Source of the DNA: Thermoplasmata archaeon
Lineage (GTDB): Archaea > Thermoplasmatota > Thermoplasmata > Thermoplasmatales > Thermoplasmataceae
Direction of reading: 5' to 3'
NCBI GenBank assembly: GCA_021797355.1
Contig: JAJZZX010000002.1
Span: 124,001-188,000, forward strand
Length of the DNA stretch: 64,000 nucleotides
Position numbers and translations under genes: made by a program. Shown here in pieces: positions 29,462-49,849 of the stretch. The notes beneath the pieces are model-generated. The model saw only the letters and a list, made by a program, of their open reading frames with translations. It had not been told where the DNA came from and searched no databases. Positions within the stretch are counted from its first letter, which is position 1, and each line of letters opens with the position of its first letter.

Positions 29462-30307
29462 ATGTCATACAACTCTGAGATAAGCAGAAGGAACCCGGGG
29501 CTGTTCATTTTCATGGTGGATCAGTCCCGGTCAATGAGTCATAAGTTGGGCGGCACCCACAGATCAAAGGCCCAGGAAGCGGCTGATGCCATAAACAGGC
29601 AGATATACGAACTCATATACAGATGCACCAAAACAGATGGTGTTAGGGATTACTTCGACATTGGAATCATAGGTTATGGGGCGATTGCTGACACGGCATC
29701 ATCCCTCCTTAAGGACGCAGATATCGTGCCAATATCAAAGCTAGCTGAGAATCCACTTAGGATGGAGAAAAGGGTGGAGAAGGTCACTGACCCGGACGGA
29801 AATGAGGTGGAGACAGAATTTGAATTCCCTGTGTGGTTCGAACCGGTTGCAAACTCAAACACGCCTATGGTGAAAGCGTTCCAGCTTGCCAGAGAATGGA
29901 TAGACGACTGGGTAGCTGAGCACAAAGACTCCTATCCGCCAGTGATCATAAACATTTCAGATGGGGCAGCTACAGACGGCGATCCCATGAAGGTCGCCCG
30001 AGAATTAATGGGAATGTCAACATCTGACGGAAATGTGCTTCTATGGAACTGCCATCTGTCCGAACTGAAGGGGGCAAAGCCCTTAGCTTTCCCATCGGAT
30101 GCCAGTGCGCTTCCGCGGGACGATAAATTTGCGCTCCAGCTTTTCGACATGTCAAGCGTCCTTCCTGATGGTTTCCTGTCAATTGCACAGGAACGATCGC
30201 TGGATGTACATCCTGGTTCGAGGGCATACGTGTTCAACGCAGGCCTGGACGAACTTCTTGAGCTCCTCGACATAGGAACAAGGGCTCCATCAGAAAATCT
30301 CCAATGA
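29462..30307 (+). CDS. von Willebrand A domain protein (TerY/YegL-like)
   Basis: 281 residues forming one vWA domain. The MIDAS metal site is intact: DQSRSMS (Asp20, Ser22, Ser24), a Thr in NSNTPMVKA, and Asp in IINISDGAATD. The order and the paired neighbours (PP2C, kinase) match TerY/YegL proteins of bacterial phosphorylation triads rather than magnesium-chelatase or CoxE vWA proteins. Cytoplasmic, no signal. The stop overlaps the PP2C start (ATGA), indicating translational coupling. Confidence 0.9.
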   Translation: MSYNSEISRRNPGLFIFMVDQSRSMSHKLGGTHRSKAQEAADAINRQIYELIYRCTKTDGVRDYFDIGIIGYGAIADTASSLLKDADIVPISKLAENPLRMEKRVEKVTDPDGNEVETEFEFPVWFEPVANSNTPMVKAFQLAREWIDDWVAEHKDSYPPVIINISDGAATDGDPMKVARELMGMSTSDGNVLLWNCHLSELKGAKPLAFPSDASALPRDDKFALQLFDMSSVLPDGFLSIAQERSLDVHPGSRAYVFNAGLDELLELLDIGTRAPSENLQ

Positions 30308-31047
30308 AGAATATGCGGGTCCGCAGCTTCACCATGAGCAAGCTGGGCAATAAACCTCAGGACTGTGAGGATTATTTTGCCTGGAATGCTTCCAGGATGA
30401 AGTTCGCAATGGCAGATGGGGCCAGCACGTCCATTTTTTCTGACATATGGGCCAGGGAGCTTACCAGGGTTTCAGTAGACGCCGAGGAAAGCATAATGGA
30501 CGGAATTGACAGCCCAGCTGAAGGCATAATCAGAAGTGCAAGAATCGCCTGGTACAAATCAATACAGTGGGCAACTCTTCCATGGTTCTTGCGCAATAAG
30601 GCCGTCTCAGGATCATATTCGACACTGCTGCTTTTGCAGATTGCACCCCTTGCCTCATCCTTCAGGTATTCAGCATATGCTGTAGGTGACACATGCCTAT
30701 TCATGATAAGGAGAAAGAAGATAACAGGAAGTTTTCCACTGTCCTCGCCGGAGCAGTTTGGCATATCTCCGAAGCTGGTATGGAGCGGCAAGGGCAGCCC
30801 GCTGCCTGGTGACATCAGGGTCCAAGTGCCAAAATTTCAGAGCCAGGCTGGAATAATCGAACCCGGGGAGATTCTGCTCCTAGCAACGGATGCTCTTTCC
30901 AGGTGGCTGCTTGAAACAGGAAGGATTGACGATCTTTTACACAGAATTGACCATCCACATGAAATGAACAAATTCCTAGCTGGCGAAATAAATTCCAAGC
31001 GGATGCGGAACGATGACGTAGCATTGGCAACCATAGAAATCATATAA
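30304..31047 (+). CDS. PP2C-like serine/threonine phosphatase (PphC/YegK-like)
   Basis: 247 residues. PP2C metal motifs are visible: QDCEDYF near residue 20, MADGAST near 37, YAVGDTCLFMI near 130, LLATDALSRWL near 195, and the C-terminal RNDDVALATIEI. It overlaps the vWA gene by four bases and its 3-prime end overlaps the convergent kinase gene by eight. By analogy with E. coli PphC/YegI, it would remove phosphates placed by the neighbouring kinase; that partnership is inferred from gene order. Confidence 0.88.
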   Translation: MKNMRVRSFTMSKLGNKPQDCEDYFAWNASRMKFAMADGASTSIFSDIWARELTRVSVDAEESIMDGIDSPAEGIIRSARIAWYKSIQWATLPWFLRNKAVSGSYSTLLLLQIAPLASSFRYSAYAVGDTCLFMIRRKKITGSFPLSSPEQFGISPKLVWSGKGSPLPGDIRVQVPKFQSQAGIIEPGEILLLATDALSRWLLETGRIDDLLHRIDHPHEMNKFLAGEINSKRMRNDDVALATIEII

Positions 31048-32476
31048 CTAGGGAGGCGGGATCGATTCCGTCCCACAACGGGCCCCTGGACAGCGATTGA
31101 ATAAGGAGATCCAGAAGTTTTCTGGTGTGTTTGCTGCGAATCTTACCAATGGCGTCAATGGCTTCAGATTCATTTGGCCTTAGGAAATCAGACTTCCTGA
31201 GTATTAGGCAGTCTGGATCGTTTCCATTGAACTTTTTCCACAGATCTGGCTTGAGCCCTATGCTCTGAAGGGAGAGCTGAATCACCAGTGCCGAAAAGGA
31301 ATCAAGCCTTTCCGAGTAAGTATCAGCATTCCTCGCAGGATGCTGGAAATCTGCGTGACCAAGCTCCGTGGCTTTCTGGCCCTTAAAATCAGGAATATAC
31401 ATTCCGTCATAATCGACAAACCTCACATTACCCTTATTGTCAATTATAATATTATCTCCAGACAGGTCTCCGTGTGCTATGCCCACTGCCTGAAGTTTAG
31501 CCACAGCATCAGCGATTCTGTTGCCAAGGCTCCTTATGGCTCTGGAATCGTCAATGTGGGTTGATATGTACTGATTTAGGGTCACTCCGTCTATCCACTC
31601 CATCTTCAGAACAGGAAAATAAACATCCGGAATCTTGCGAGTTTTTATACCTTCAGGAAAATATGAGAAATGTATGAGGTATGGGATACTGCTTCCAAGA
31701 TTGAGGAGAAAGTCGCTTATGAGGCTGTAGCGCTGGTTTATTGTGAGGGATTTCTTCGTAAAGCACTTAATTGCGTAATACTTGCCGTCGTCAGCTTTGA
31801 CCTTGTATATTGAACCATAATTGCCCGATGCATAAACGTACCAGGAGGGGTTTTTCTGGTTCCGGATGGCTTCCCACCGATCAACCTGGCCAAGTGACTG
31901 GTTAAGGCTAAGTTTCAGTGTCTGGAAAGACTGTTCATAATCCTGCCCTGATGGCCACTGGCCATTGTATACTGGGGGAGGAGTCCTGTTGATCGGGTGG
32001 CTCTTCCTGGCAGTTGCTTGTAAATTGGGTGTGGAAACTCCCGTCCCGGCCCTTCCACTGGCCATTGCAATGGGATTCCCTGTGGAGCCAGCCGGACTGG
32101 TAGTCAGGGATTGAGAAACGGGATTATGTTTTGCCTGTGGCTGGATTGGAATGTTGTTGGTGGCAGAATTCTGGGGCATGTTTCCGGAGAGTGCCTCATA
32201 TATCCTTATTGCCATCTCCGTGGTCTGCCTCCAGTCCTCAAGATCAGGGACGGAGAAGAGGATTCTCCTTCCGGAATTGTCAACGATGCAGAGTCTCTTG
32301 AGCAGTTTCCCCTCAATGGACACTGCTGATATTTTCTCAAGAGGTAAGAACAGCTGCTTGTCGCCATTGTCCGGAGTGAAGAGGATCCCGTTGGCAGAAA
32401 GAACAAGCGTGCCACGGTTTCCAGAGGTTGAGGCAGAGGTACCTTTGAAAATCGAATACCTAGATCGCTGAGCCAT
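31040..32476 (-). CDS. serine/threonine-kinase-like protein (YegI-like) with N-terminal PH/GRAM-like domain
   Basis: 478 residues in three parts. Residues about 1-100 look like a PH/GRAM-like beta domain (TLVLSANGILFTPDNGDKQ, SVPDLEDWRQTTEMA). Residues 100-180 are a low-complexity Pro/Ser/Thr/Gln linker. Residues 190-478 are a kinase domain: glycine loop SGNYGSIYKV, Lys237 in YYAIKCF, HGDLSGDN with Asp337, and DYDG with Asp357 in place of DFG. The ELGHADFQHP region and DSFSALV are characteristic of the YegI group. A strong AAGGAGGATC Shine-Dalgarno precedes the ATG. No membrane span is evident. Confidence 0.88.
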   Translation of the reverse strand: MAQRSRYSIFKGTSASTSGNRGTLVLSANGILFTPDNGDKQLFLPLEKISAVSIEGKLLKRLCIVDNSGRRILFSVPDLEDWRQTTEMAIRIYEALSGNMPQNSATNNIPIQPQAKHNPVSQSLTTSPAGSTGNPIAMASGRAGTGVSTPNLQATARKSHPINRTPPPVYNGQWPSGQDYEQSFQTLKLSLNQSLGQVDRWEAIRNQKNPSWYVYASGNYGSIYKVKADDGKYYAIKCFTKKSLTINQRYSLISDFLLNLGSSIPYLIHFSYFPEGIKTRKIPDVYFPVLKMEWIDGVTLNQYISTHIDDSRAIRSLGNRIADAVAKLQAVGIAHGDLSGDNIIIDNKGNVRFVDYDGMYIPDFKGQKATELGHADFQHPARNADTYSERLDSFSALVIQLSLQSIGLKPDLWKKFNGNDPDCLILRKSDFLRPNESEAIDAIGKIRSKHTRKLLDLLIQSLSRGPLWDGIDPASLVI

Positions 32477-34599: not shown

Positions 34600-35108
34600 G
34601 AGGTCGATCTCAGATTAAAGAAGGGGGAGGCTGATACAGTTGCGGCTCTGCCAAATGATGCTTTTTCCCCATAAAGCATTACATTGAACTGGACAGGATG
34701 CCCACTCACCCAAGGGCATTTTTCACAGGTCCCGGCGGCAGGATGGATGCCGAATATCTCAGGCAGCACATCTCAGTCCTGAGAAAGAAGGTGGTCCCGC
34801 AGTTCCACCCCCATGCTGCCAGGCACTGGGTTGCCACAGCCATCCTGGCGGGAAGGGAGGATACAGGAATGGAACCCATGGACATCAGATTTGTGCAAAC
34901 CCACCTGCGCCATGCGAGTCTGGCGAGCACTCAGGTCTATACACACGTGGATCCAAAATTGAATGCTGACATGGTCAGGGAAAGGATGAACAAATTTTTC
35001 CTCAACTCTAAAATAAATACGGGTCCAAACGCGTCCGAACCCGTTTTAGCGGGTCCGAGGGGGTTCGAACCCCCGACCTATGGATTAAGAGTCCATCGCT
35101 CTACCTAG
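34600..35108 (+). pseudogene. decayed tyrosine recombinase/integrase ending inside tRNA-Lys
   Basis: Pieces in two frames: EVDLRLKKGEADTVAALPNDAF (34600-34665, preceded by in-frame stops), then after a one-base loss in the TTTTTCCCC run at 34662-34670 the sequence KHYIELDRMPTHPRAFFTGPGGRMDAEYLR continues to the end. The catalytic box-II residues remain: HPHAARHW (HxxR), THLRHASLASTQVYTHV (His and nucleophile Tyr). The N-terminal domain and the first Arg are lost. The frame terminates within the antisense of tRNA-Lys (GPRGFEPPTYGL), the usual signature of a tRNA-targeted integrase. Confidence 0.85.
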
Positions 35109-35123
35109 CTAAGCTACGGACCC
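35050..35123 (-). tRNA. tRNA-Lys (CTT)
   Basis: Acceptor GGGTCCG/CGGACCC, anticodon stem ATGGA/TCCAT with loop CTCTTAA, anticodon CTT (complement at 35087-35089), T-loop TTCGAAC, discriminator G. No intron and no encoded CCA. Its 3-prime end faces the accessory segment and overlaps the integrase pseudogene, so it is the probable attachment site. Confidence 0.95.
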
Positions 35124-35317: not shown

Positions 35318-36307
35318 ATGGCAACACCGCATCACCCCAGACGGGGGTCTATGGGGTACTACCCTAGGGTACGTACCAAGAGAATGCAAGGCGATATTAG
35401 GAGCTGGCCTGAAGCCGATGGCAACGTGAGGATACAGGCTTTCGCTGGATACAAAGTCGGCATGACGCATGTCGAGATGACCGACTATAGAAAATTCAGT
35501 GTCACAGCCGGTCAGACAATTGCAGCGCCGGTCACTGTAGTCGAGGTTCCGCCACTAACTGTTGCAGGCATTAGATATTACGATGAAACTGAAACTGGGC
35601 TGGCCATAGTATTTGAGAAATGGGCAGAAAATCTTGACAAGGAAATCTTCAGGAGGATCAACAGTATTGCGAAAAGAAAAGAACCTCCAATGGTTACTGA
35701 AGTTTCAGAAGTTAGGCTTATAGTCCATACCAATCCAAAGATGGTGAGTGGGGTACCCTCCAAGGTGCCAGATATATTCGAGATAAGGGTTGCAGGCGGG
35801 GACGTGAAGGCAAAAATGGCTTATGCACAGGAACATCTAGGTAAGCAGTTGCATTTTTCTGATTTTTCAAAGGTAGGAAATTTTGCCGATGTTATTGGAG
35901 TAACAAAGGGTAAAGGTTTCCAGGGACATGTAAAGAGATTTGGAGTTAAACTGCTCCCAACAAAGAACAGGAAACACAGGAGGATGATAGGTACACTTGG
36001 GCCGTGGCACCCTGACTGGGTAAGAAACACAGTCCCACAGGCTGGTCAGGTCGGTACTCACCAGAGAACCGCCCACAACATCAGGATATTGAAATATTCT
36101 AAAAATGAAGGGGATCAGGATATCAACGTAAAAGGCGGTTTTACTAACTATGGATTGGTAAGGACTGAATATGTCTTGATTCATGGATCAGTTCCTGGAG
36201 CAGCAAAAAGACTCATCAAGTTCAGGGACCCAGCCAGGCAGACTGCGCCTTCTGTTGATAACCTGACCATATCGTACGTATCAAAGGAATCCAAGCAAGG
36301 TGATTAA
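35318..36307 (+). CDS. rpl3: 50S ribosomal protein uL3
   Basis: 329 residues, archaeal length. MATPHHPRRGSMGYYPR at the N-terminus and GVTKGKGFQGHVKRFGVK, the peptidyl-transferase-reaching loop region, are diagnostic. Ends VDNLTISYVSKESKQGD. First gene of the S10/spc-type cluster; an AGGTGAT Shine-Dalgarno precedes it. Overlaps the next gene by eight bases. Confidence 0.97.
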   Translation: MATPHHPRRGSMGYYPRVRTKRMQGDIRSWPEADGNVRIQAFAGYKVGMTHVEMTDYRKFSVTAGQTIAAPVTVVEVPPLTVAGIRYYDETETGLAIVFEKWAENLDKEIFRRINSIAKRKEPPMVTEVSEVRLIVHTNPKMVSGVPSKVPDIFEIRVAGGDVKAKMAYAQEHLGKQLHFSDFSKVGNFADVIGVTKGKGFQGHVKRFGVKLLPTKNRKHRRMIGTLGPWHPDWVRNTVPQAGQVGTHQRTAHNIRILKYSKNEGDQDINVKGGFTNYGLVRTEYVLIHGSVPGAAKRLIKFRDPARQTAPSVDNLTISYVSKESKQGD

Positions 36308-37067
36308 GTTGAAAGCAAATTTATACACTAAGGATGGAGAAGTCAAAGGAGAGATCTCCCTGCCCTCTGTCTTCGAAACACCAGCCAGGCAGGACATAAT
36401 TAGGAAGGCATTCCGTGCCATAACCCTGTCAATGCGTCAGCCATATGGTTCATATCCGTTGGCCGGAATGAGGAGAGTGGGTCACAATGCTGGTCCTGGC
36501 CACGGAACAGCGAGGATACCCAGGACATCAGGATCATCAAGGGCAGTCCTTCTGGGAAATTTCGTCGGAGGAAAAAGTGCACACTCACCAAGGACAACAA
36601 AGGTTCTTTTCAAGGGCATAAACAAGAAGGAAAGAAAGTTAGCAAGAATGAGTGCCATTGCCCTTACCGCATCAAAGGAGGCGGTTAAAAAAAGAGGGCA
36701 TGAAATATCAGAAGACATAACATTGCCAGTCATAGTACAGAATGACATAGAAAAAATTACGAAGACAAAGGAGGCTGCCGAGGTATTGAAGAATCTCGGT
36801 CTCTATGATGACGTAATCAGGGCGAGGAACGGGACAAAAATCAGGGCTGGAAGAGGAAAGATGAGGGGAAGGAGATACAGGGAACCGAGGAGTATACTCA
36901 TTGTAGGTTCATCAAGCGAGAAGCTCAGGGCCTTTTCAAGGTTACCTGGCGTCGATGTTGCAACCACGAGAAGCCTTAGCCTGAGAAAGTTAGCTCCAGG
37001 AGGAGATGCGGGGCGTCTCACATTATTTACTGAATCGGCTGTTAAGGCCCTGGAGGCGATCGAGTGA
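36300..37067 (+). CDS. rpl4: 50S ribosomal protein uL4
   Basis: 255 residues. The exit-tunnel loop is recognisable (GMRRVGHNAGPGHGTARIPR...GSSRAV), followed by the archaeal extension APGGDAGRLTLFTESAVKALE. GTG 36300 or TTG 36309 may be the start; both are preceded by coding sequence of uL3. Overlaps uL23 by four bases. Confidence 0.96.
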   Translation: MIKLKANLYTKDGEVKGEISLPSVFETPARQDIIRKAFRAITLSMRQPYGSYPLAGMRRVGHNAGPGHGTARIPRTSGSSRAVLLGNFVGGKSAHSPRTTKVLFKGINKKERKLARMSAIALTASKEAVKKRGHEISEDITLPVIVQNDIEKITKTKEAAEVLKNLGLYDDVIRARNGTKIRAGRGKMRGRRYREPRSILIVGSSSEKLRAFSRLPGVDVATTRSLSLRKLAPGGDAGRLTLFTESAVKALEAIE

Positions 37068-37318
37068 TGGAAGATATCATAATAAAACCCATTGCAACAG
37101 AAAAGACAATGCTCCAGCTCGAAAAGGAGAACAAACTATCATTCATAGTGAACAAAAAGAGCAGAAAAGGAGATATCAAGAAGGAAGTTGAAGAGAAATT
37201 CTCGGTCAAAGTCACAGATGTGAACATCATCATAACGAAGAATGGAAAGAAAGCCGTGGTCACACTCTCAAAGGAATTTTCCGCGGATGAAATAGCCGGT
37301 AGGATCGGAATATTCTGA
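37064..37318 (+). CDS. rpl23: 50S ribosomal protein uL23
   Basis: 84 residues. IIIKPIATEKTMLQLEKENKL at the N-terminus and KVTDVNIIITKNGKKAVVTL are family signatures. Docks at the tunnel exit where signal recognition particle binds. ATGA overlap with uL4. Confidence 0.96.
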   Translation: MMEDIIIKPIATEKTMLQLEKENKLSFIVNKKSRKGDIKKEVEEKFSVKVTDVNIIITKNGKKAVVTLSKEFSADEIAGRIGIF

Positions 37319-37326
37319 GGTGAAAT

Positions 37327-38019
37327 ATGGGGAAATTAATAATACCGCAAAGAAGAGGAAAGGGAGGGCTTGTCTATAGAAGCCCAAGCCATAGACATTT
37401 GGGCGAGATGAAACTGGTTCCCCCTGGGACTTACAAGGTCGAGGATATAGTTCACGCTCCGGGCAGGAACTCCCCGGTTCTCATACTTGAGGGCCAAAAC
37501 GGGAAGAAAATAAATCAAATTGCTTTCAATGGAGCTTTTAAGGGACAAGCCATAGAAAGCTCTGATTCTGCTCCGGCAGATATTGGAAACACACTAACTC
37601 TGGGTTCCATACCAGATGGCAGCTATATTCACAACATAGAAAGCAAACCCGGCGATGGTGGTAAATTCTGCAGGACAGCTGGTTCTAGTGCCCTACTAGT
37701 TAGCCATGGCGAAAAGGTTGCCGTGCGGCTACCATCAGGGAAAATAAAGCAGTTCCATCCCCAATGTAGGGCAACTGTCGGTTTCGTGGCTGGTTCAGGA
37801 AGCAAGGACATACCAGTTCTTAAGGCTGGAAGGAATGTACATTATCTGCAAAGCAAGGCTAAGAGACCTTACACTGTCAGAGGGGTTGCGATGAACGCTG
37901 TTAATCACCCCCACGGAGGAGGTAACCATCAGCATGTAGGAAGGCCAAGCACAGTAGGCAGGGGAACACCTCCGGGAAGAAAGGTTGGCAGGCTGTCTCC
38001 TAAGAGGAGGAAATCATAA
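37327..38019 (+). CDS. rpl2: 50S ribosomal protein uL2
   Basis: 230 residues. The universally conserved His-containing loop [20 protein letters not shown] near residue 195 needed for peptidyl transfer is intact. A GAGGTGA Shine-Dalgarno sits just before the ATG. Its stop overlaps the uS19 start. Confidence 0.97.
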
Positions 38020-38477
38020 TGGCGCAGAACAGACAAGCATCTGTAAAATCAATCAAAAGAAGGGCACGGAAGTCTCAGAAAGTAGTCATGGGACGGGCGA
38101 AAGAGTTCACATACAAAGGCCTATCCCTTGATGAACTTAAGGCTCTACCAATGGAAAAGCTGATAGAAATCCTTCCAGCAAGGGCTAGAAGGTCCCTCAA
38201 GAGAGAAAAGAACCATGACCAGGCTGTACTCTATGAGAAACTGTCTTCTCCAGAAATAACGGAATACAAGACACACATCCGCGACGCAATCATAATTCCA
38301 GCTTTCATTGGTAAAGTCGTGGAAGTATACAACGGCAACAGTTACGTGAAGTTCGAAATAAGGCCAGAAATGGTAGGACATTACTTGGGTGAATTCGCCC
38401 TTACCAGAAAAGAGGTTAAACACTCTGGTCCAGGTGTTGGAGCAACCAGATCATCAAAATTCATGCCACTGAAGTGA
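38019..38477 (+). CDS. rps19: 30S ribosomal protein uS19
   Basis: 152 residues, with an archaeal N-terminal extension of about 60 residues before the conserved core THIRDAIIIPAFIGKVVEVYNGNSY and MVGHYLGEFALTRK...HSGPGVGATRSSKF. The gene starts at the last base of uL2. Confidence 0.96.
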   Translation: MAQNRQASVKSIKRRARKSQKVVMGRAKEFTYKGLSLDELKALPMEKLIEILPARARRSLKREKNHDQAVLYEKLSSPEITEYKTHIRDAIIIPAFIGKVVEVYNGNSYVKFEIRPEMVGHYLGEFALTRKEVKHSGPGVGATRSSKFMPLK

Positions 38478-38483
38478 TGAGAT

Positions 38484-38933
38484 ATGAAAGGATATTCAAT
38501 AACAGAGTTTCCGGAAAGATCGGCAATTGCCCGAGTCAGGGAAGCGGATATTTCACTCAAAGACGCAGTCAACATAGCCCACTTTCTCAGAGGAATGACC
38601 CTTAGCAGGGCTAAGGAGACCCTTGAGAGGGTAATGGACAAGAAAGAACCTGTTCCATACTTCAGGTATCTTGATTCAGTTTCCCACAGAAAGGGGATGG
38701 GACCAGGGAGATATCCGGTAAAGGCGGCAAAGTCATTTATGGAGCTTCTTAACAGCGTCGAGGCCAATGCTGAGTTCAAAAGCCTCAATACAGATTCATT
38801 GGTTCTGAAGCACATAGCAGCATCAAAGGGACGGATGATAAAGAAATACACCCCAAAGGCATACGGCAGAGCCGGTGCTAATTTCAAGGACCTTGTAAAT
38901 CTGGAGGTTCTTGCAGAGGAGGCCACAGAATGA
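38484..38933 (+). CDS. rpl22: 50S ribosomal protein uL22
   Basis: 149 residues. [25 protein letters not shown] and [23 protein letters not shown] identify it; the C-terminus [16 protein letters not shown] is the tunnel loop region in its archaeal form. Overlaps uS3 by four bases. Confidence 0.96.
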
Positions 38934-39592
38934 AGGAGAGAAAATTTGTTCAGAACACGGTTAACAAGCTTCTTGTTACGGAGTACATAAGAAGAGAGAC
39001 TGAAAGCGCTGGCTTTGGCGGTATGGAAATGAAGAGAACCCCGTTCGGAACCAACATAACGCTTTACGTAAATAAGCCCGGTCTTGTCATTGGGCGCAGG
39101 GGCAGCAAGGTCCAGGAAATTACCGATACCCTAGAGAAGAAATACAAGGTTGAATCACCTCAGATCGAAGTGAAGGAAATTGACAATCCCGATCTCAACC
39201 CTCAGGTTGTATCCAAGAAGATTGCCCTTTCCCTAGAAAAGGGCTGGTCCTACAGGAAGGCTGGAAACACCTCTCTGAGAAGAATAATAGACAGCGGGGC
39301 CAGGGGCGTTATGATAAGGATCGGAGGCAAAATTTCCGGTGAAAGGGCAAGATCACAGAAATTCATGTACGGTTCCATCAAATATTCCGGGGAACCTGCA
39401 AGAGCTGGAATGGATGTGGGATTCTCTGCCGCAAAACTTAAACTGGGGATTATAGGGGTTTCAGTCAGGATGCTAAGAAAGGACTACAGGCTTCCTGATG
39501 ACATTCACGTGGAACTGAAGGGAGTTCAGAAGAAAGAATTGGAGGAACCAGCAAATGGAGCTAAGATCGAAACAGATAAGGCAAATGAGTAG
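38930..39592 (+). CDS. rps3: 30S ribosomal protein uS3
   Basis: 220 residues. KH domain with [22 protein letters not shown], and the C-terminal half [25 protein letters not shown] short acidic/polar tail ([16 protein letters not shown]) follows. Its end overlaps uL29 by 38 bases. Confidence 0.96.
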
Positions 39593-39758
39593 GGCAGAAG
39601 TTGAGGAGAGGCTGAAATCTCTTAAGGATTCCCTGCTGAAGGAAAGAGCATCGGTGGCCATGGGTGGTGCACCTACGAATCCGGGGAAAATCAGGTCAAT
39701 AAGGAGACAGATAGCCAGGATTAAATCTTTCCTGGAATCGGAGGCTACCAAGGAATGA
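39555..39758 (+). CDS. rpl29: 50S ribosomal protein uL29
   Basis: 67 residues, helical: [24 protein letters not shown] and [17 protein letters not shown] are typical. A start at the internal ATG (MSRAEV, 39588) would remove the large overlap with uS3, and is plausible. ATGA overlap with the next gene. Confidence 0.93.
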
Positions 39759-40054
39759 AGGACAAGAATTTCACCGGATTGCCAAAGGAATTGCAGCCTT
39801 GGGAGGGTTTCACAAGAGACAACCAGACCGTTAAGATAACAGTGGACAAGAGAAGATACGGTAAGTTTGTGACAATAGTTGACGGCATTGATCCAAAATC
39901 AGAGAATATCTGGGACATTGCCAAGGAACTCAAGAAGAAGGTAGCGTCAGGTGGCACTGTGAAGGATGGGAAGACCATTGAGCTTCAGGGCGACCACAGG
40001 GATTCAGTGAAGAAGTATCTAGAAGATATGGGTTTCAAAACAGAGGTGGTATGA
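39755..40054 (+). CDS. translation initiation factor aIF1 (SUI1)
   Basis: 99 residues, SUI1 fold: VKITVDKRRYGKFVTIVDGID and KKVASGGTVKDGKTIELQGDH are the family signature. It helps start-codon selection on the small subunit. Placement between uL29 and the RNase P gene is the standard archaeal order. Confidence 0.93.
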   Translation: MKDKNFTGLPKELQPWEGFTRDNQTVKITVDKRRYGKFVTIVDGIDPKSENIWDIAKELKKKVASGGTVKDGKTIELQGDHRDSVKKYLEDMGFKTEVV

Positions 40055-40347
40055 TGATTGGTGACTACGTCTCTGAGTTTCTCGGCCTCAACATGAAGAT
40101 TATGAAACATTCAAATCCAAACAACATAGGAAAGGAGGGCACGGTGGCCTTTGAAACTGCGAGAACGCTGGTGATCCTCAGCAATGGAAGAAGGCTGGTA
40201 ATTCCCAAGGAGACTGGTGAATTCAATTTAACTGACGGGCAAAGGAATCTCCGTATTGTGGGGGATCTGATTGCCATGAAGCCCGAGGAAAGGCTGAAAA
40301 ATTATAGGAAGATCGCAAAAAAGTTACAGCAGAGGGAAGGTGATTAA
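40051..40347 (+). CDS. rnp1: RNase P protein component 1 (Rpp29/Pop4)
   Basis: 98 residues. Sm-like fold of Rpp29: HSNPNNIGKEGTVAFETARTLVIL and VIPKETGEFNL. Partner of the RNase P RNA in tRNA 5-prime maturation; the RNA gene is not in this window. Overlaps by four bases with aIF1 and by eight with uS17. Confidence 0.93.
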   Translation: MMIGDYVSEFLGLNMKIMKHSNPNNIGKEGTVAFETARTLVILSNGRRLVIPKETGEFNLTDGQRNLRIVGDLIAMKPEERLKNYRKIAKKLQQREGD

Positions 40348-40672
40348 CATTACTAACAACATAGGTTTGGACGTTGTTCCGCCAAAGGAAGAATGCCATG
40401 ACAGGAAATGCCCGTTCCACGGTGACCTCAAAGTCAGGGGGCAGGTAATAACCGGTGTAGTGGAATCGGCAACAATGATAAAGAGCGCGACTATAGTCAA
40501 GGAATACAAGCGCTATGTCAGAAAATTTGAGAGGAAGGAGACAAGGTTCTCCAGGTATCATGCTCATGTTCCAGACTGCATCAAGCTGCAGCCAGGAGAC
40601 AGGGTCAAGATAGCCGAGTGCAGGAAACTGGCAAAAACAGTTTCGTTCGTGGTAGTTGAAAAGGTGAGTTGA
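40340..40672 (+). CDS. rps17: 30S ribosomal protein uS17
   Basis: 110 residues from GTG 40340. Archaeal N-terminal extension GLDVVPPKEECHDRKCPFHG precedes the OB-fold core GQVITGVVESATMIKSATIVKEY and FSRYHAHVPDCIKLQPGDRVKIAE. The extension has two cysteines and three histidines that could bind zinc (inference). Confidence 0.95.
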   Translation: MINITNNIGLDVVPPKEECHDRKCPFHGDLKVRGQVITGVVESATMIKSATIVKEYKRYVRKFERKETRFSRYHAHVPDCIKLQPGDRVKIAECRKLAKTVSFVVVEKVS

Positions 40673-41070
40673 TGAAGGGTATAGCGGGAAGACAGCACAG
40701 AGGTTTACCACTTGGTGCGGTGATGCCATGCTCTGATAACAGTGGTGCAAAGGTAATCAGCCTCATTGATGTTAAGGCATACCATGGGGTTGCCAGCAGG
40801 ATACCAGCAGCTGGCGTTGGGGATATGTTTATCGCCAGTGTGAAGAAAGGCACACCTGAAATGAGAAGCAAAGTGGTATACGCAGTGGTCATAAGGCAGA
40901 GACGTCCTTACAGAAGGCCTGACGGTACGATGGTACAGTTCGATGAAAATGCTGCTGTACTGGTCACACCTGAAGGTGAAGTTAGGGGATCAGAAATAAA
41001 GGGACCAGTCGCCAGGGAAGCAGCGGAAAGATGGCCCAGGATAGCTGCAATAGCTTCCACTATAGTATGA
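40672..41070 (+). CDS. rpl14: 50S ribosomal protein uL14
   Basis: 132 residues from ATG 40672, which overlaps the uS17 stop and follows an AAGGTGA Shine-Dalgarno; an extra upstream TTG codon is also open. VMPCSDNSGAKVISLIDV and VVIRQRRPYRRPDGTMVQFDENAAVL, GEVRGSEIKGPVAREAAERWPRIA are diagnostic. Confidence 0.96.
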   Translation: MKGIAGRQHRGLPLGAVMPCSDNSGAKVISLIDVKAYHGVASRIPAAGVGDMFIASVKKGTPEMRSKVVYAVVIRQRRPYRRPDGTMVQFDENAAVLVTPEGEVRGSEIKGPVAREAAERWPRIAAIASTIV

Positions 41071-41079
41071 GGGATCTGG

Positions 41080-41571
41080 ATGTACAGCAAAATCAAGGTA
41101 TCATTGAACAGTGACCTCAGGAAAAGATTTGGCCTTCGCTCATTTGCCATTTCTGAGGGCGATATCGTAAAGGTGAGGTCCGGCTCCAGGAAGGGTGAGG
41201 GAGGAAAGGTCGTTAAGGTCGATCATGTTACGGGCAAGGTTTCAGTTGAGGGCTTGACAATTGCGAAGGCTGACGGAAAACAGAAGGAATTTTTCCTTGA
41301 GCCCAGCAGCCTGGTAATAACCAGGCTAGATCTATCAAGGCAGGAACGCCTAGCCAGAATCAGGGAAATTGCAGCATTAAAGAAGATAACGATTTCAGAA
41401 CCGACGCCAGAAGAACTGGCTCCTCCAGAGTCAGAGACTGAGCCTGAAACAGAGGCAGAACCTGTGCAGTCAGAGGTAGTTTCCGAAGAAACGTCAGCTG
41501 AAACCCAGGAAAAAGAGCCAGAAGAGGAAAATTCCGAAGAAAGCGAAGAGGAGGAAGAGAATGATCAATAA
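41080..41571 (+). CDS. rpl24: 50S ribosomal protein uL24 with long acidic tail
   Basis: 163 residues. KOW motif region ISEGDIVKVRSGSRKGEGGKVVKVD identifies uL24. From about residue 107 the protein changes to a low-complexity Glu/Ser/Pro tail (PESETEPETEAEPVQSEVV to the end), about 55 residues, which is not part of the conserved protein. The tail overlaps the start of eS4 by 11 bases. Confidence 0.94.
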   Translation: MYSKIKVSLNSDLRKRFGLRSFAISEGDIVKVRSGSRKGEGGKVVKVDHVTGKVSVEGLTIAKADGKQKEFFLEPSSLVITRLDLSRQERLARIREIAALKKITISEPTPEELAPPESETEPETEAEPVQSEVVSEETSAETQEKEPEEENSEESEEEEENDQ

Positions 41572-42268
41572 GACCAAAAGACTAGTTATCTCCAGAGCAG
41601 TTAAAATAGCCAGAAAGGAGTATTTCTGGGCGGCAACACCAATGACGGGAAGGCATAACAAGGAAAATTCTGTTGCGCTCTTGACGGTTATCAGAGATTA
41701 CCTTGGGCTAGGAGACAAGGAAAGAGAAGTTACCAGGATGCTGAATAACGGTCTCGTAAAGGTGGACGGTAAGATAGCCAAGGAGAGGAAAACCGCACTT
41801 GGCTTTATGGATGTCATATCAGTCGAATCTCTGAAATTATACTACAGAATAGTCTATGACAACAAAGGACGTTTGATAGTTGCGAAGGAGGACGAGAAAA
41901 ATAGCTCTCTGAAGCCAAAGAAGGTTGTCGACAAGATTACCATTAAAGGCGGAAAGACCCAGCTTGTCTTCCACGATGGAGAAAACATACTTACAGATGA
42001 TAACAGCGTATCTACCGGGGATGTTGTGGTTCTATCAGTACCGGAAAACAAGATTACCCAGGTCCTGAAGATGCAGCCCGGCAACAAGGCTTTCCTGACT
42101 GGAGGCGAGCACGTCGGATCAACCGGAACAATCAAAAAGGTAGAGGTCAAGGAGTCCTCTGGAAAGAATCTAGTCCACTTTGAGGAAGGCTTCTCCACAG
42201 TTTCAGATTACGCCTTTGTCGTAGGCAGCCCAAAGTATACGTTCACAATTCCAGGGGGTGAGCAGTAA
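41561..42268 (+). CDS. rps4e: 30S ribosomal protein eS4
   Basis: 235 residues. N-terminal S4 domain (LKRLVISRAVKIARKEYFWAATPMTGRH-like), LGFMDVISVESLKLYYRIVYD, and a C-terminal KOW-like part GGEHVGSTGTIKKVEVKE. Archaeal/eukaryotic-specific. Confidence 0.95.
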   Translation: MINKTKRLVISRAVKIARKEYFWAATPMTGRHNKENSVALLTVIRDYLGLGDKEREVTRMLNNGLVKVDGKIAKERKTALGFMDVISVESLKLYYRIVYDNKGRLIVAKEDEKNSSLKPKKVVDKITIKGGKTQLVFHDGENILTDDNSVSTGDVVVLSVPENKITQVLKMQPGNKAFLTGGEHVGSTGTIKKVEVKESSGKNLVHFEEGFSTVSDYAFVVGSPKYTFTIPGGEQ

Positions 42269-42819
42269 TGCCAAGAAAAAAACAGGCAGAGAAGACTACC
42301 CAGGTTGAGAATGACATGAGAGCCATAGTGCTGGACAAGGTTGTAGTCAATATCGGAGCCGGGCAGGCCGGCGAAAGGCTTAACAAAGCAGCAAGAGTAA
42401 TCGAAATGCTCACTGACCATAAGCCTGTGTTTACCACAGCAAAAAGGACAGTGAGGGATTTTAATATAAGAAAGGGTCTGCAAATAGGCGCCAAGGTCAC
42501 GCTGAGAAAGAAGGACGCAGAGGAATTCCTAAGGAAGGCACTTTTTGCAAGGGACTACAAGATTCAGGATTATTCATTTGACAGACAGGGTAATGCCTAT
42601 TTTGGAATCGCGGATTACACAGACTTTCAGGGAATGAAGTACGATCCGGAAATAGGCATATTCGGCCTGGATGTAGCTGTAGTACTGAAGAGGAAGGGCG
42701 GATACAGGCTGACCAGGAGAAGGATAGGTTCCAGGAGACTGCCATCAAGCATGGGTATCGCGAAGGAAGAGTCAGAGAAGTTCCTAACCGAGAATTTCAA
42801 TGTAAAAATAATCAGGTGA
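42268..42819 (+). CDS. rpl5: 50S ribosomal protein uL5
   Basis: 183 residues. [49 protein letters not shown] and [25 protein letters not shown] are the family signatures. Binds 5S rRNA with uL18. Starts at the last base of eS4. Confidence 0.96.
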
Positions 42820-42823
42820 ATTA

Positions 42824-42985
42824 ATGTCGCAGGTAAAACTTGAACCAAAGAGAAAATTCGGTCACAAGGAAGGTTGCGTTAGGTGCGGAAGGAAGAGGGG
42901 AATGGTAAGAAGGTACGGGCTGAGGCTGTGCAGGCAGTGTTTCAGGGAAACTGCACCATCCCTTGGATTCAGGAAATACAGTTGA
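42824..42985 (+). CDS. rps14: 30S ribosomal protein uS14, zinc-ribbon type, 53 residues
   Basis: Short frame from ATG 42824, between uL5 and uS8. The product has CVRCGRK and CRQCFRE, the two CxxC pairs of the zinc-binding uS14, then [10 protein letters not shown] at the end as in archaea. A CAGGTGA Shine-Dalgarno lies seven bases upstream. Easily missed because of its length. Confidence 0.95.
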
Positions 42986-42994
42986 GGTGAGCAA

Positions 42995-43384
42995 ATGAGA
43001 CATGATCCGCTTAATGATATTATAAACAGCATCAAGAATGCATCTAGGACAGGCAAGAGAGAGATTGAGGCCGAACCGGCAGCAAATCTCATAGGAAGAG
43101 TGCTCAAAGTAATGCAGGACTACAACTATCTGAAAAGTTTCGAGGTTGTTGACGAAAACAGGGGTGGCAAATTCAAGATTGTACTTAGCAACACCATTAA
43201 CAACTGTGGTGTTATCAAGCCAAGGCTACCGGTGAAGAAGGCCAATCTGGACAGATATGAGGCCAGATATCTTCCTGCACAGGATTTCGGCATTTTGATC
43301 CTCACAACAACCAAGGGTGTGATGAGCCACATCGAAGCAAGAGAACAGGGTCTTGGTGGAAAACTACTTGCATATGTCTATTGA
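42995..43384 (+). CDS. rps8: 30S ribosomal protein uS8
   Basis: 129 residues. MRHDPLNDIINSIKNASRTGKREIE and the C-terminal GVMSHIEAREQGLGGKLLAYVY are diagnostic. GAGGTGA precedes the ATG. Confidence 0.96.
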   Translation: MRHDPLNDIINSIKNASRTGKREIEAEPAANLIGRVLKVMQDYNYLKSFEVVDENRGGKFKIVLSNTINNCGVIKPRLPVKKANLDRYEARYLPAQDFGILILTTTKGVMSHIEAREQGLGGKLLAYVY

Positions 43385-43396
43385 GGTGAAGATAAG

Positions 43397-43927
43397 ATGA
43401 TAGAATGGAAGGAAACGTGGAGTTACGACATTCCTGCCGGCGTTACCCTTTCCGTTAAGGATGGCGAGGTAAAAGTCAAGGGAAAGCTTGGAGAGACCAG
43501 CCGCGTCCTGCGGGACAACTATGTTAGGGTTGAAGGGGACGGCAAGAGAGTCAAAATTTCCATCAGCAAGGATAATCGCAGAAACAAGGGAATTTCAGGA
43601 ACATGGGCATCGGAGATTAAGAATATGGTAACCGGTGTTACAACAGGATTTGAATATGAGATGAAAATAGACTACACACACTTTCCCATGAGGGTTTCGG
43701 TAAGAGGCAACTCGGTGCTAATAGAAAATTTTCTGGGAGAGAGATCACCAAGGACAGCCGAGATCAGGGGTAGCACAAAGGTAAGCGTGAAGGGCGACAG
43801 GGTATTCCTTAACGGTATAGACAAGAGAGATCTTGGCCACACAGCTGCAAATATAGAGAAGGCAACAATGATCAAGGGATTCGATTTGAGGGTATTCCAG
43901 GATGGAATCTATCTGTTGAAAGGATGA
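43397..43927 (+). CDS. rpl6: 50S ribosomal protein uL6
   Basis: 176 residues. IPAGVTLSVKDGEVKVKGKLGE in the first domain and YDIRAHFPM-equivalent YTHFPMRVSVRGNSVLIENFLGERSPR in the second. GAGGTGA Shine-Dalgarno just upstream. Confidence 0.96.
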   Translation: MIEWKETWSYDIPAGVTLSVKDGEVKVKGKLGETSRVLRDNYVRVEGDGKRVKISISKDNRRNKGISGTWASEIKNMVTGVTTGFEYEMKIDYTHFPMRVSVRGNSVLIENFLGERSPRTAEIRGSTKVSVKGDRVFLNGIDKRDLGHTAANIEKATMIKGFDLRVFQDGIYLLKG

Positions 43928-43933
43928 TAAATC

Positions 43934-44341
43934 ATGAACAATATCAAACCAAAACTTACAGAAGCTGAGAAGAAACTTCTCAAGAGAAAGAACAGTGACG
44001 CCAGGCGCCGGGTTGAGTTCAGGCGTCAGGAATGGTTCAGATACAAGAAGCTTGGAGACTCCTGGAGGAAGCCCAGAGGAAAACACTCAAAGCAGAGGGA
44101 GCACCAGGCAAGGAGGCCCCCAGTAGTTGACGCTGGCTTCAGGGGTCCGAGATCAGTTAGGGGCCTCCATCCGTCAGGGTTTAAGGAGGCCATGGTCTTT
44201 AATCCTTCAGACCTTGAGAAGATCGATCCACAGAGGGAAGCAGCAAGGATAGGCTCTACTGTGGGTTCCAGAAAGAGGGAACAAATCATGGAGAAGGCCG
44301 CTGAACTGAACATCAGGGTGCTAAACCCGGAGGTGGACTAG
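43934..44341 (+). CDS. rpl32e: 50S ribosomal protein eL32
   Basis: 135 residues. Basic core [22 protein letters not shown] followed by [16 protein letters not shown] is diagnostic for eL32. Archaeal/eukaryotic only. Starts six bases after uL6 and ends next to eL19. Confidence 0.95.
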
Positions 44342-44342
44342 G

Positions 44343-44798
44343 ATGAAGCTCAATACCGCTAAACGGATAGCAGCCGATGAATTTAAATCTGGTATTTCCA
44401 GAGTATGGGTTGACACAAACAGCCTTGATCAGGTGATGGAGGCCGCTTCGCGGCAGGATGTAAGGGAACTAATTAGGAGAAACGTAATACAGGTAAAGCC
44501 CAAGAAAGGTAACTCCAATGCTCGGCTGAAGAAAAGAATAACACAAAGGTCGAAGGAGAGGAGAAGAGGTCCAGGTTCAATCCGGGGAACAAAATATGCA
44601 AGATTTCCAAGGAAGGACAGATGGATCAAGACCATAAGGGCGCTTAGAGACGAGCTCCGGACAATGAAGAGAGAGAACAGAATCGATGCAAAAACATTCA
44701 GGAAGTTCTATGTGCAGGTTAAGGGCGGAAGCATCAGATCCAGGGCACAGCTTGTCCAGCACATGAAATCAATGGGATATCTGGGTGAGCAGAAATGA
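44343..44798 (+). CDS. rpl19e: 50S ribosomal protein eL19
   Basis: 151 residues. LNTAKRIAADEFKSGISRVWVD, a basic linker RITQRSKERRRGPGSIRGTKYARFPRK and a long helix are typical. Overlaps uL18 by four bases. Confidence 0.95.
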   Translation: MKLNTAKRIAADEFKSGISRVWVDTNSLDQVMEAASRQDVRELIRRNVIQVKPKKGNSNARLKKRITQRSKERRRGPGSIRGTKYARFPRKDRWIKTIRALRDELRTMKRENRIDAKTFRKFYVQVKGGSIRSRAQLVQHMKSMGYLGEQK

Positions 44799-45286
44799 TG
44801 CAGTACAGCGTTATGAAGAGGAGAAGGGAGGGTGTAACCAACTACCACAAGAGGCTCAAACTACTGAAATCTGGCCTTCCCAGGCTTGTGGTCAGGCCTT
44901 CGAACAAGGGGATTCTGGCTCAAGTGGTAAATTACGCACAGAGTGGGGACCTTGTGGTATGCACGGTGACAGAGAGATCCCTCAAGAAACTGGGCCTCAA
45001 TGTTGACGGGAACAGTGTGCCAGTGTCCTATCTTGTAGGTTTCGCACTGGGCCTCAAATGCAAGAAGAAGAAAGTGAAGAATGCTATCCTGGATTCTGGT
45101 AGATACAATATTATCAAAGGAGGAAGGATATCTGCAGTTCTGAAAGGATTTACCGATGCAGGCGTAAAGGTTCCACATGAATCATCAATTTTCCCGAAAA
45201 AAGACAGGCTTGCCGGAAAGCACCTGAAGAACGGTGCGTCAATTAATCTTGATGAGATGAAGAAAATGCTGGAGGAGAAGATATGA
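44795..45286 (+). CDS. rpl18: 50S ribosomal protein uL18
   Basis: 163 residues. RRREGVTNYHKRLKLLKSGLPRLVVRPSNKGILAQVV and DSGRYNIIKGGRISAVLKGFTDAGV are family signatures. Internal ATG codons at 44798 and 44813 are possible starts. Binds 5S rRNA. ATGA overlap with uS5. Confidence 0.95.
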   Translation: MMQYSVMKRRREGVTNYHKRLKLLKSGLPRLVVRPSNKGILAQVVNYAQSGDLVVCTVTERSLKKLGLNVDGNSVPVSYLVGFALGLKCKKKKVKNAILDSGRYNIIKGGRISAVLKGFTDAGVKVPHESSIFPKKDRLAGKHLKNGASINLDEMKKMLEEKI

Positions 45287-45951
45287 CGGAAGAAACATGG
45301 ATACCGGTTACCCAGTTAGGCAAAATGGTAGCCTCGGGCCAGATCAAGACCATGTCTGAAGCCCTGAGAACAAAATTGCCGCTTAAGGAATATCAGATTG
45401 TCGATTACCTGCTACCCAATCTCAAGGACGAGGTAATAGACATTGAGCGGGCACAGAGAATGACCGACTCCGGCAGAAGGATGAACTACTCAGTAACGGC
45501 CGTAGTCGGAAATGAGGATGGTTTCATAGGGGTTGGCCGCGGCAAAGCCAAGGAAGCAGCTCCTGCAATAAGGAAAGCCATTAACAATGCAAAGCTCAAC
45601 ATTCTCGAGATAAGGCGCGGATGCGGGTCTTGGGAGTGCGGATGCGGAAGGGCACACACTCTTCCATTCCTCGTAAAGGGAAAATCCGGGTCAGTCGAGG
45701 TCATATTGAAACCTGCCCCGCAGGGTGTTGGGAGGGCAGTTGGCGATATAGCCAAGATTATTCTCAGGATGGCAGGAATAGAGGATGCCTGGGGCTTTGC
45801 TGAGGGACACACAAAGACAACAGTAAACTATGCCCTTGCAGCCTTCGATGCAATGAGACAGACAGCAAAAATGAAGGTCAATTCTTCATTGAAGATAAGT
45901 ACTCCAATATATACAGGAAGTGTTTCCAATGCTGGCAGTAATACGAATTAG
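45283..45951 (+). CDS. rps5: 30S ribosomal protein uS5
   Basis: 222 residues. [27 protein letters not shown] and the archaeal [16 protein letters not shown] cysteine-containing insertion, then [18 protein letters not shown]. The insertion with CGxWxCxC is a known archaeal feature. Confidence 0.96.
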
Positions 45952-46420
45952 GGGAACAACAGGCATAAGGCCGCAGGCTGCAAAGACAGCCGAGCTGCTT
46001 AGGCTGAACAGGATAAACCACCTTGTTTTCGTTGAGGACAACGAGACCACAAGGGGAATGCTTCAGACGGTCAAGGATTATGTGACATGGGGCGAAGTGG
46101 ACGAGGAAACCATAGAAATGATACTAAAATACCGGGCACAGCTAAAGGGGCACAACCCGCTCTCCGAGGAGGAGCTAAAGGAAATCAGCGGGTACCAGAC
46201 CTTCAAGGAGCTTGCTTCTGCAATAAATACGGGAAAGATCAAGTTCAGGGATATCAGGGACATTGTTCCGGTAATCAGACTCAACCCGCCAAGGGGAGGA
46301 TACGAAGCCATTCGAAAGCCCTTCAAGCAGAAAGGTTCAGCGGGCTACAGGGGGAAGGACATTAACAACCTCATACTTAGAATGCTGAAATCAGGAGTTG
46401 ATTTAAATGGTAAGAACTAG
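45929..46420 (+). CDS. rpl30: 50S ribosomal protein uL30
   Basis: About 163 residues from ATG 45929 (ATG 45920 is also open). [37 protein letters not shown] and [20 protein letters not shown] match the long archaeal uL30. The start lies inside uS5 (23-base overlap). Confidence 0.94.
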
Positions 46421-46847
46421 GACAAAAAAGCTGAGGGGCGGCCACTACGGCAGAGGCATGAAGGCAGGAAGAGGAAAGGGCAAGAGGGGTGGATCCGGCA
46501 TGTCCGGCCTTGGAAAGCATAGATGGGTCTGGCTTCTGAAGTATGATCGGGATCATTTTGGCGGGCACGGCTTTACAAGCCACCATCAGGGCAGACCCGA
46601 CATTCCAATTACCCTCTCACAGCTTGAGGCTAGCATGGACAGCCTCAGGGCACAGGGGTTTGTCAAGGAAGGGAAGGGTGGCCTTATGGTTGACCTTGCC
46701 GCTGCAGGATACACAAAGCTTCTGGGTTCAGGCGATTTCCGGACGAAGGCTACCATAAAGGTGGGCAAGGCAACCGAAAAAGCATTAAGTAAGCTTTCCT
46801 CTCAGGGCATTACGGTAGAGACTGATGGTGGACGTTCAGAGGAATAA
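46407..46847 (+). CDS. rpl15: 50S ribosomal protein uL15
   Basis: 146 residues. [24 protein letters not shown] glycine-rich N-terminus and [19 protein letters not shown] are archaeal uL15 features. Last ribosomal gene of the block; overlaps secY by 23 bases. Confidence 0.95.
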
Positions 46848-48585: not shown

Positions 48586-49140
48586 TTGAGAGTCGTCATT
48601 TCTGGAGTGGCGGGGGTAGGCAAGTCCACGGTGCTTGAACTAGTCAGGAAGAAGACCAATTACGATATCATAAATTTCGGTACACTAATGTTCGAAATGG
48701 CACGAAACATTGATCTTGTCAAGGACAGGGATGAACTGCGAAAGCTACCAGTCGACACTCAGATAAACCTCCAGAAGAAAGCTTCAGCTGCCATTGGAAA
48801 AATGAACAACGTTATAATTGACACACATATGACAATAAAGACGCCTGACGGCTATCTGCCCGGCCTTCCGGAATGGGTTATCAGGGAACTGAAAGTGTCA
48901 GCATACTATCTGATAGAGGCAGACCCCGAGCAGATACTGAAGAGGCGCAACCTTGACTCCTCCAGGAGGAGGGACAGCGATACTGCGGAAGATATAAAGG
49001 AGCACCAGGAGGTCAACAGGTATTATGCGTCTTCTTATTCTGTTTATACCGGTGCGACAATAAGATTCATCCTCAATGTGGATGGAAAACCTGACATAGC
49101 AGCAGAGAATATAGTAAGGAGATTGATGCCCCATGACTGA
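48586..49140 (+). CDS. adkA: archaeal adenylate kinase
   Basis: 184 residues. P-loop GVAGVGKST at residues 7-15 and the archaeal-type layout without the bacterial LID zinc finger: INFGTLMFEMA, IIDTHMTIKTPDGYLPGLP, and EADPEQILKRRNLDSSRRRDSD (lid arginines). Converts AMP + ATP to 2 ADP. TTG start directly follows the secY stop; adk next to secY is conserved gene order. Confidence 0.94.
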   Translation: MRVVISGVAGVGKSTVLELVRKKTNYDIINFGTLMFEMARNIDLVKDRDELRKLPVDTQINLQKKASAAIGKMNNVIIDTHMTIKTPDGYLPGLPEWVIRELKVSAYYLIEADPEQILKRRNLDSSRRRDSDTAEDIKEHQEVNRYYASSYSVYTGATIRFILNVDGKPDIAAENIVRRLMPHD

Positions 49141-49849
49141 GCAGCAGAAGACAACAATGAACAGGCCCGCACTGGAAAAGAACCAGCAGGCAGCCATGGG
49201 CAAGATGATGCGCTTCCAGATGATCTACATGATGATCAGCATCCTGATGCTCATAGTGATCTTCAATGGAACAATAAGGAATGATATAGGGCTGGGAATG
49301 GGTTACATACTGCTGCCCATAGTCGGGTTCAACTATAGCTTCCCAATATTCACCATCATTCTTGTTGCAATCATAATTGGCCTGATAACGTCCATTCCAA
49401 GATATTTCTTCACCGACTGGATTCAGATGGGTAGGATACAGAACAGGATGAGGGCATTCAACAAGGTCTATTCTGAAGCCATGAGATCACAGCAGAGGGA
49501 CAAGCTGCAGAAGCTTCAGAAGATGAGGATGGAGATGTCCATAGAGCAGTCCCAGCTCAGCATGAACCAGATGAAGCCGCTCATGGTACTGACCATATTC
49601 ACACTGCTTCTGTTTGCCTGGATATACTACTTCGTTACGAGGGTCCCTTACCAGATAATAGCATTCCCCTGGAATTTCAATGTCAACATAGCTACGGCAC
49701 ATCTCTGGACATTCCCGTACTGGTTCATCGCTGACATACTTGCAACTTCTGCCTTTGGCTATCTGGCAACGAGCATTATCAAGATTTTTGACTTCAGCCA
49801 CAAGCTGAAGAAAGCAGAGCAGTCAGGATCAAATGAGATTGACCATTAG
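49133..49849 (+). CDS. EMC3/TMCO1-family (DUF106) membrane insertase homologue
   Basis: 238 residues with about four membrane spans and a central cytoplasmic coiled coil (RMRAFNKVYSEAMRSQQRDKLQKLQKMRMEM). This is the archaeal DUF106 layout, related to the Oxa1/YidC superfamily. It probably inserts membrane proteins together with SecY, which is encoded two genes upstream; that role is family knowledge. Overlaps adkA by eight and cmk by 17 bases. Confidence 0.88.
   Translation: MTEQQKTTMNRPALEKNQQAAMGKMMRFQMIYMMISILMLIVIFNGTIRNDIGLGMGYILLPIVGFNYSFPIFTIILVAIIIGLITSIPRYFFTDWIQMGRIQNRMRAFNKVYSEAMRSQQRDKLQKLQKMRMEMSIEQSQLSMNQMKPLMVLTIFTLLLFAWIYYFVTRVPYQIIAFPWNFNVNIATAHLWTFPYWFIADILATSAFGYLATSIIKIFDFSHKLKKAEQSGSNEIDH

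Follow-up and report, generated by a model that had tools for sequence, protein, structure and literature searches.

In a window of 64,000 nucleotides from a Thermoplasmata archaeon, with a genome of 1.74 Mb, three adjacent genes encode a vWA protein, a PP2C phosphatase and a protein kinase. This locus raises the question of which known triad it is related to, how it has been inherited among archaea, and what the three proteins do together. A first-pass annotation of the window had described an intact vWA-PP2C-kinase triad. All three ORFs were confirmed to be intact at 29462-32476 of the window sequence; the vWA and PP2C genes share 4 bp, and the PP2C and kinase genes overlap by 8 bp. The features are listed in Table 1.

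Table 1. Triad genes and kinase domains with their positions in the 64,000-nucleotide window
Feature	Position	Strand	Evidence
TerY-like vWA protein, 281 aa, complete MIDAS	29462..30307	+	PADLOC TerY 5.1e-86
PP2C/PPM-type protein phosphatase, 247 aa	30304..31047	+	PADLOC PP2C 2.7e-25; Pfam PP2C_2 3.8e-5
Hanks-type protein kinase, 478 aa	31040..32476	-	Pfam Pkinase 9.1e-13; PADLOC STK_OB 1.3e-60
Kinase N-terminal PH-fold domain (predicted), ~aa 7-98	32183..32458	-	AlphaFold2 model, Foldseek
Kinase Pro/Ser/Thr-rich disordered linker, ~aa 99-173	31958..32182	-	pLDDT, identity to congener
Kinase catalytic domain, ~aa 174-478	31043..31957	-	Invariant alignment columns, model, Foldseek to protein kinases
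PP2C/kinase tail-to-tail gene overlap, 8 bp	31040..31047	.	ORF coordinates

Composition of the triad and comparison with bacterial TerY-P loci

The three proteins match the PADLOC families TerY, PP2C and STK_OB, which bears out the earlier description of a triad of the TerY-phosphorylation (TerY-P) type. The TerY match covers residues 1-275 of the vWA protein, nearly the full length, and the Pfam vWA match to the same protein is weak. The MIDAS residues D20, S22, S24, T134 and D167, whose motif had been recognized in the first reading, are present and invariant in 20 relatives. Identity of the vWA protein to bacterial TerY is 43-50%. It is also the slowest-evolving member of the triad, with 90% identity to its congener, compared to 54% for the PP2C and 59% for the kinase.

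In the phosphatase, the PADLOC PP2C match spans residues 10-246 and places the protein in the PP2C family of the TerY-P set. The Pfam PP2C_2 match is weak, and acidic metal-site motifs are present in the sequence. In work ascribed to Dahche in 2009, a PPM phosphatase of Thermoplasma volcanium reportedly hydrolysed phosphotyrosine. That enzyme cannot be assigned to the triad PP2C, since two PPM genes exist in the Thermoplasma genome G102.

The HGDLSGDN and DYDG motifs pointed out in the kinase are located at residues 335-342 and 355-358, and the key lysine is K237. The G-loop SGNYG, the AIK lysine, HGDLSGDN and DYDG were each found in 47 of 47 archaeal relatives. The Pfam Pkinase match is clear, and the STK_OB match is restricted to the catalytic part (profile positions 41-273 of 562). 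The kinase domain is well predicted by AlphaFold2, and its Foldseek matches are protein kinases. In all relatives, the C-terminus of the archaeal kinase is the end of the catalytic domain, 120-126 residues past DYDG. A C-terminal OB fold or zinc ribbon is absent from the window protein and from all archaeal relatives, and a helix-hairpin-helix C-terminal to the catalytic domain is likewise absent in the archaeal kinases.

In bacteria, TerY-P has been described as a module of metal stress and antiphage activity, and the C-terminal OB fold or zinc ribbon of its kinase is thought to contact nucleic acid. Judged by homology, the window locus is an archaeal lineage of this kind of triad. Homology covers the full domains of all three proteins, scores of bacterial TerY-P kinases against the archaeal kinase profile are mostly 225-300 bits, and the order and strand of the vWA and PP2C genes are retained. 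The three genes are adjacent in 50 archaeal neighbourhoods, as in the TerY-P triad.

The differences lie in the kinase and in the residence of the locus. The bacterial sample, which is skewed to the closest relatives of the archaeal query, comprises the 34 loci whose contig includes a kinase gene (32 found by the vWA scan described below, two on plasmids), and in all 34 the kinase gene is co-directional, whereas every intact kinase gene of the archaeal clade is convergent with PP2C. The opposite strand of the kinase had been considered unusual at this locus; the orientation is real, but it is fixed across the whole archaeal clade rather than being a local oddity. In the bacterial kinases the catalytic domain is on the N-terminal side and, in complete genes, a C-terminal tail of 97-550 residues follows, several of these tails matching helix-hairpin-helix or OB-like domains. 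In the archaeal clade, by contrast, the catalytic domain is C-terminal, no tail exists, and an N-terminal PH, membrane or beta module is carried instead. Relocation of the bacterial extension to the N-terminus was ruled out, as the bacterial tails have no similarity to the archaeal N-termini. Additionally, the archaeal triad is a resident single-copy locus, unlike TerY-P.

The core of this triad is known from bacteria, while the inverted kinase gene and the N-terminal modules appear to be new. A search of open-access papers turned up no account of the rearranged archaeal form. In a 2023 study of E-plasma, a membrane-associated Ser/Thr kinase is named as a gain and a PH-domain protein is mentioned, neither being connected with a triad. 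A search for linked Ter genes, which the first-pass annotation had recommended, found TerD in 0 of 77 genomes of the family, with controls detected, and a tellurite (Ter) operon is thereby ruled out.

N-terminal modules and inheritance in the archaea

The archaeal kinases possess approximately 100-330 additional N-terminal residues. A PH/GRAM-like domain had been proposed for this region of the window kinase, and structure prediction agrees with the proposal. The AlphaFold2 model is a seven-stranded barrel with a C-terminal helix (pLDDT ~94), and its Foldseek matches are MTMR6 PH-GRAM, GRK2 PH, Tfb1 (TFIIH) PH, SSRP1 and Rtt106, with E down to 2.6e-5 and TM (query) of 0.67-0.79. Matches of curated PH-family profiles are all sub-threshold, and nearly all of them are PH-like (PH_TFIIH, POB3_N, GRAM, bPH_3, Vps36). 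W82 in the helix is invariant. The N-terminus is confidently predicted to adopt the PH superfold, which would add a PH-domain protein kinase to those of the archaea. The linker that follows is disordered in the model (pLDDT <50 for residues 100-165) and is 27% identical to the congener, versus 64-65% in both domains.

According to the N-terminus, the archaeal kinases can be divided into 3 classes. The PH class is found in genera g1, g9, g11, g12, g13 and g17, with two tandem PH copies in the kinases of g11 (L017/L018). Two to six membrane helices characterize the second class, which comprises the Thermoplasma-like g16, g8, g18 and Sysuiplasma. The third class, found in g3, g4, g6, g7, g10 and g19, has a soluble beta domain that is probably Ig-like, Pfam giving weak Filamin/Ig hints. 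Where one subtype has the PH domain, its sister subtype has the membrane helices. Weak partial matches to the PH profile of the kinase were also found in open frames of ~90-115 codons in several genera (G072:C44:30404-30544, G070:C3:238705-238848, G048:C1:511424-511561 and others). These frames may encode stand-alone PH proteins, a possible source of the kinase PH domain.

The same trio was sought in other archaeal genomes. Strong matches to the vWA, PP2C and kinase proteins occur in the same 54 of 117 genomes of the order, a co-occurrence far above chance. All 54 fall in one family of Thermoplasmatales (54 of its 77 genomes, 16 genera), and these Thermoplasma-related archaea are heat- and acid-loving. 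Absence is mostly genus-wide, as in g2, g5 and g14. The dN/dS values of all three genes are ~0.01-0.12 in pairs with unsaturated dS, and the triad is under purifying selection, as had been supposed from its intactness.

Scanning a genome collection with the vWA alignment gave 491 relatives. Among the best 80 of these 491, which were retained, the top named matches come from uncultured Thermoplasmata MAGs, and those of Thermoplasma, Thermogymnomonas, Cuniculiplasma and E-plasma come next. Sysuiplasma relatives carry the triad too. Of 390 genomes sampled from the phylum, 24 gave a TerY match, namely 22 of this family, G409 and G448. G409 is outside the family, and its TerY protein belongs to the same clade as that of the family. 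G448, of the same class and another family, has two very divergent TerY-type modules (L156 4293-7645 and L157 5270-8805). The module on L156 is co-directional, as in bacteria, so that archaea contain both gene arrangements.

Among the neighbourhoods compared, 50 of which contain the vWA gene, the layout is vWA> PP2C> <kinase, and no further gene accompanies the triad repeatedly across the family. The triad is single copy and is located at genus-stable places. The ends of the PP2C and kinase genes overlap by 8-23 bp in 37 of the 47 intact archaeal loci. A kinase disrupted by frameshift or stop, or by deletion, occurs in 3 of the 50 neighbourhoods (L024, L034, L035). In the assembly of Thermogymnomonas acidicola JCM 13583 (L024 / L096), stops seem to interrupt ribosomal L3 as well as the kinase, so sequencing errors are a better explanation than pseudogenes. 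L035 (5352-7500; same locus L083) shows a natural deletion of ~0.9 kb spanning the convergent junction. There the PP2C has lost its C-terminus and the kinase its catalytic domain, so that each of these two ORFs continues antisense to the other. The vWA gene is intact.

In the vWA tree, each N-terminal class of kinase forms one side of a branch (support 100/100/100). The tree of the kinase catalytic domain contains class branches with support of 100 (PH), 68 (helix) and 97 (beta). In the PP2C tree the PH class is one side of a branch (97), the beta class weakly so (42), and the helix class not. The class-matching of the three trees, which are almost devoid of supported conflict, implies that the triad evolves as a linked unit. 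All archaeal members of the rearranged type form one clade of the vWA tree (support 100), in which Sysuiplasma is nested beside genus g18. The simplest reading is thus a single origin of the rearranged form, with at least one move from order to order.

Ribosomal L3, one gene with weak deep branches, was used as the reference for inheritance. The triad trees have 16-21 supported branches in common with L3 and one supported conflict each, indicating vertical inheritance of the locus within genera. A single clade of PH genomes (p 0.007) and a single clade of beta genomes (p 0.003) are both rejected by L3, and strictly vertical descent of the kinase subtypes is thus ruled out. From these trees, a few ancient inter-genus transfers of whole cassettes are likely. 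Such transfer is less typical of housekeeping genes, a point against the switch proposed below.

Proposed role and competing explanations

In these protein families, a Hanks kinase and a PP2C from one locus work against each other, and a vWA protein whose MIDAS is complete would be the likely shared substrate or adaptor. The reading we prefer, with a probability of about 0.6, is a switch of the archaeal TerY-P lineage, in which the kinase and the PP2C act in opposition on a shared target and the PH domain positions the kinase. Support comes from the profile matches, the joint occurrence in 54 genomes, the fixed layout, the intact catalytic sites, the purifying selection, the largely concordant trees and the predicted PH fold. 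The target would most likely be the vWA protein itself, or a partner held via its metal site. The N-terminal accessory module would determine the site or the timing of kinase action. In the window subtype, the PH domain on its flexible linker would localize the kinase at the membrane or at a protein docking site, and membrane helices would do the same in the Thermoplasma/Sysuiplasma subtype. The triad as a whole may serve as a resident response of stress or homeostasis.

That membrane helices replace the PH domain in a sister subtype suggests that the kinase may be positioned at the membrane. Protein docking is also plausible, because the beta subtype has neither PH domain nor helices and several of the best structural matches of the PH domain bind proteins rather than lipids. 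On this evidence, a whole archaeal lineage appears to keep a TerY-P-type switch as a resident locus while swapping the extension for PH, membrane or beta modules, and the conserved core of vWA, PP2C and kinase would thereby be separated from its input. The role of the vWA protein becomes testable in culturable relatives of Thermoplasma.

PH domains occur on some human signalling kinases. A tentative extension of the switch is that the locus might be a convergent archaeal counterpart of GRK2/Akt, with a PH-recruited Hanks kinase and a dedicated tail-to-tail PP2C. The overlapping gene ends would tie the expression of kinase and phosphatase together, and one vWA-centred output would receive alternative inputs from the PH, helix or beta modules. 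In GRK2/Akt-type kinases a PH fold is likewise coupled to a Hanks-type kinase, and the PH domain of GRK2 ranks with the top structural matches, but the resemblance is in fold only, without sign of shared descent of the architecture. Archaea themselves offer a direct parallel to the switch in Sulfolobus, where ArnC phosphorylates the vWA protein ArnB and PP2A removes the phosphate (PMC12852372). As described there, an archaeal vWA protein is switched by a phosphatase and a Hanks kinase with a C-terminal catalytic domain (PMC12852372). The Arn system differs in its PP2A-type phosphatase, in the N-terminal OB/TPR parts of ArnC, and in the partner ArnA with an FHA domain. In E. coli, PphC dephosphorylates YegI (PMC13232886), which likewise speaks for a switch.

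Homology to TerY-P, which is reported to be active against T7-like phages (PMC7699616, PMC11090510), gives some ground for antiviral defence, in which infection would switch on the kinase, and the virus would be blocked by the phosphorylation status of the vWA complex; the PADLOC matches of all three proteins and some inter-genus transfer also fit. However, the triad is single copy at genus-stable places and is absent mostly by whole genus rather than patchily, the 50 neighbourhoods contain no recurring defence genes, the kinase lacks the nucleic-acid-type C-terminal domain, and at shallow levels the triad trees largely agree with L3, which together make defence unlikely. Somewhat less probable is a metal-dependent scaffold, whereby the vWA protein would build metal-sensing complexes alone and the kinase and phosphatase would merely tune each other. 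The vWA protein is indeed by far the slowest-evolving member with an invariant MIDAS, and in genome G104 (L035) the vWA gene is still intact next to the deleted junction, but this case is one metagenome contig, and the three genes are otherwise always kept together.

The first-pass annotation had likened the triad to YegL/PphC/YegI, and a true archaeal system of this type would indeed have the same three domain types encoded together. The sequence relation is remote, and the likeness fails: against the archaeal profiles, YegL scores 15.7 bits, YegI 6.8 bits, and PphC has no meaningful match. Compared to the scores of the bacterial TerY-P kinases, the 6.8 bits place the archaeal kinase outside the YegI group, an outcome that the first-pass annotation had named as refuting its reading. 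A faint local YegI match to the HGDL..ELGH region is a trace of the resemblance claimed for ELGHADFQHP, whose real likeness was overstated. None of the three E. coli proteins matches TerY, PP2C or STK_OB of PADLOC. In E. coli, yegL, pphC and the kinase gene share one strand, and only the intervening yegJ departs from this direction; YegI has an N-terminal catalytic domain together with membrane and C-terminal HHH-like parts. The sequence profiles thus refute the reading of the triad as a true system of this type, which is scarcely credible.

Surroundings of the locus

The triad had been placed in an accessory segment full of broken genes. This holds for fragment-like ORFs around 20-25 kb of the window and for a truncated integrase on the right, but not for the immediate left. 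Coding density amounts to 0.96 at 28-32 kb. Next to the triad on this side, two MFS ORFs and one winged-helix ORF are intact, and a second species of the genus has their orthologues in the corresponding position (47-73% identity). A decayed accessory island is ruled out by this synteny. Phage or plasmid cargo is also ruled out, as the kinase has no phage match and the only plasmids with a vWA relative are two cyanobacterial ones.

To the right lie an M20 peptidase, the truncated integrase over tRNA-Lys, and a ribosomal-protein operon. The tyrosine integrase ORF (PF00589, 136 aa, 34698-35123) runs into tRNA-Lys(CTT) at 35049-35123(-) and is, from its sequence and position, a relic of an element integrated at the tRNA gene. 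The syntenic left flank and the relic on the right imply a resident locus with an old integration scar alongside. The triad is 3 kb upstream of the ribosomal-protein operon in the window and ~64 kb away from it in the congener G105. This archaeal operon extends over 35318-52216 and includes L3, L4, L2, S3, S4e, S5, SecY, an EMC3-like protein, TruB and a Nop domain.
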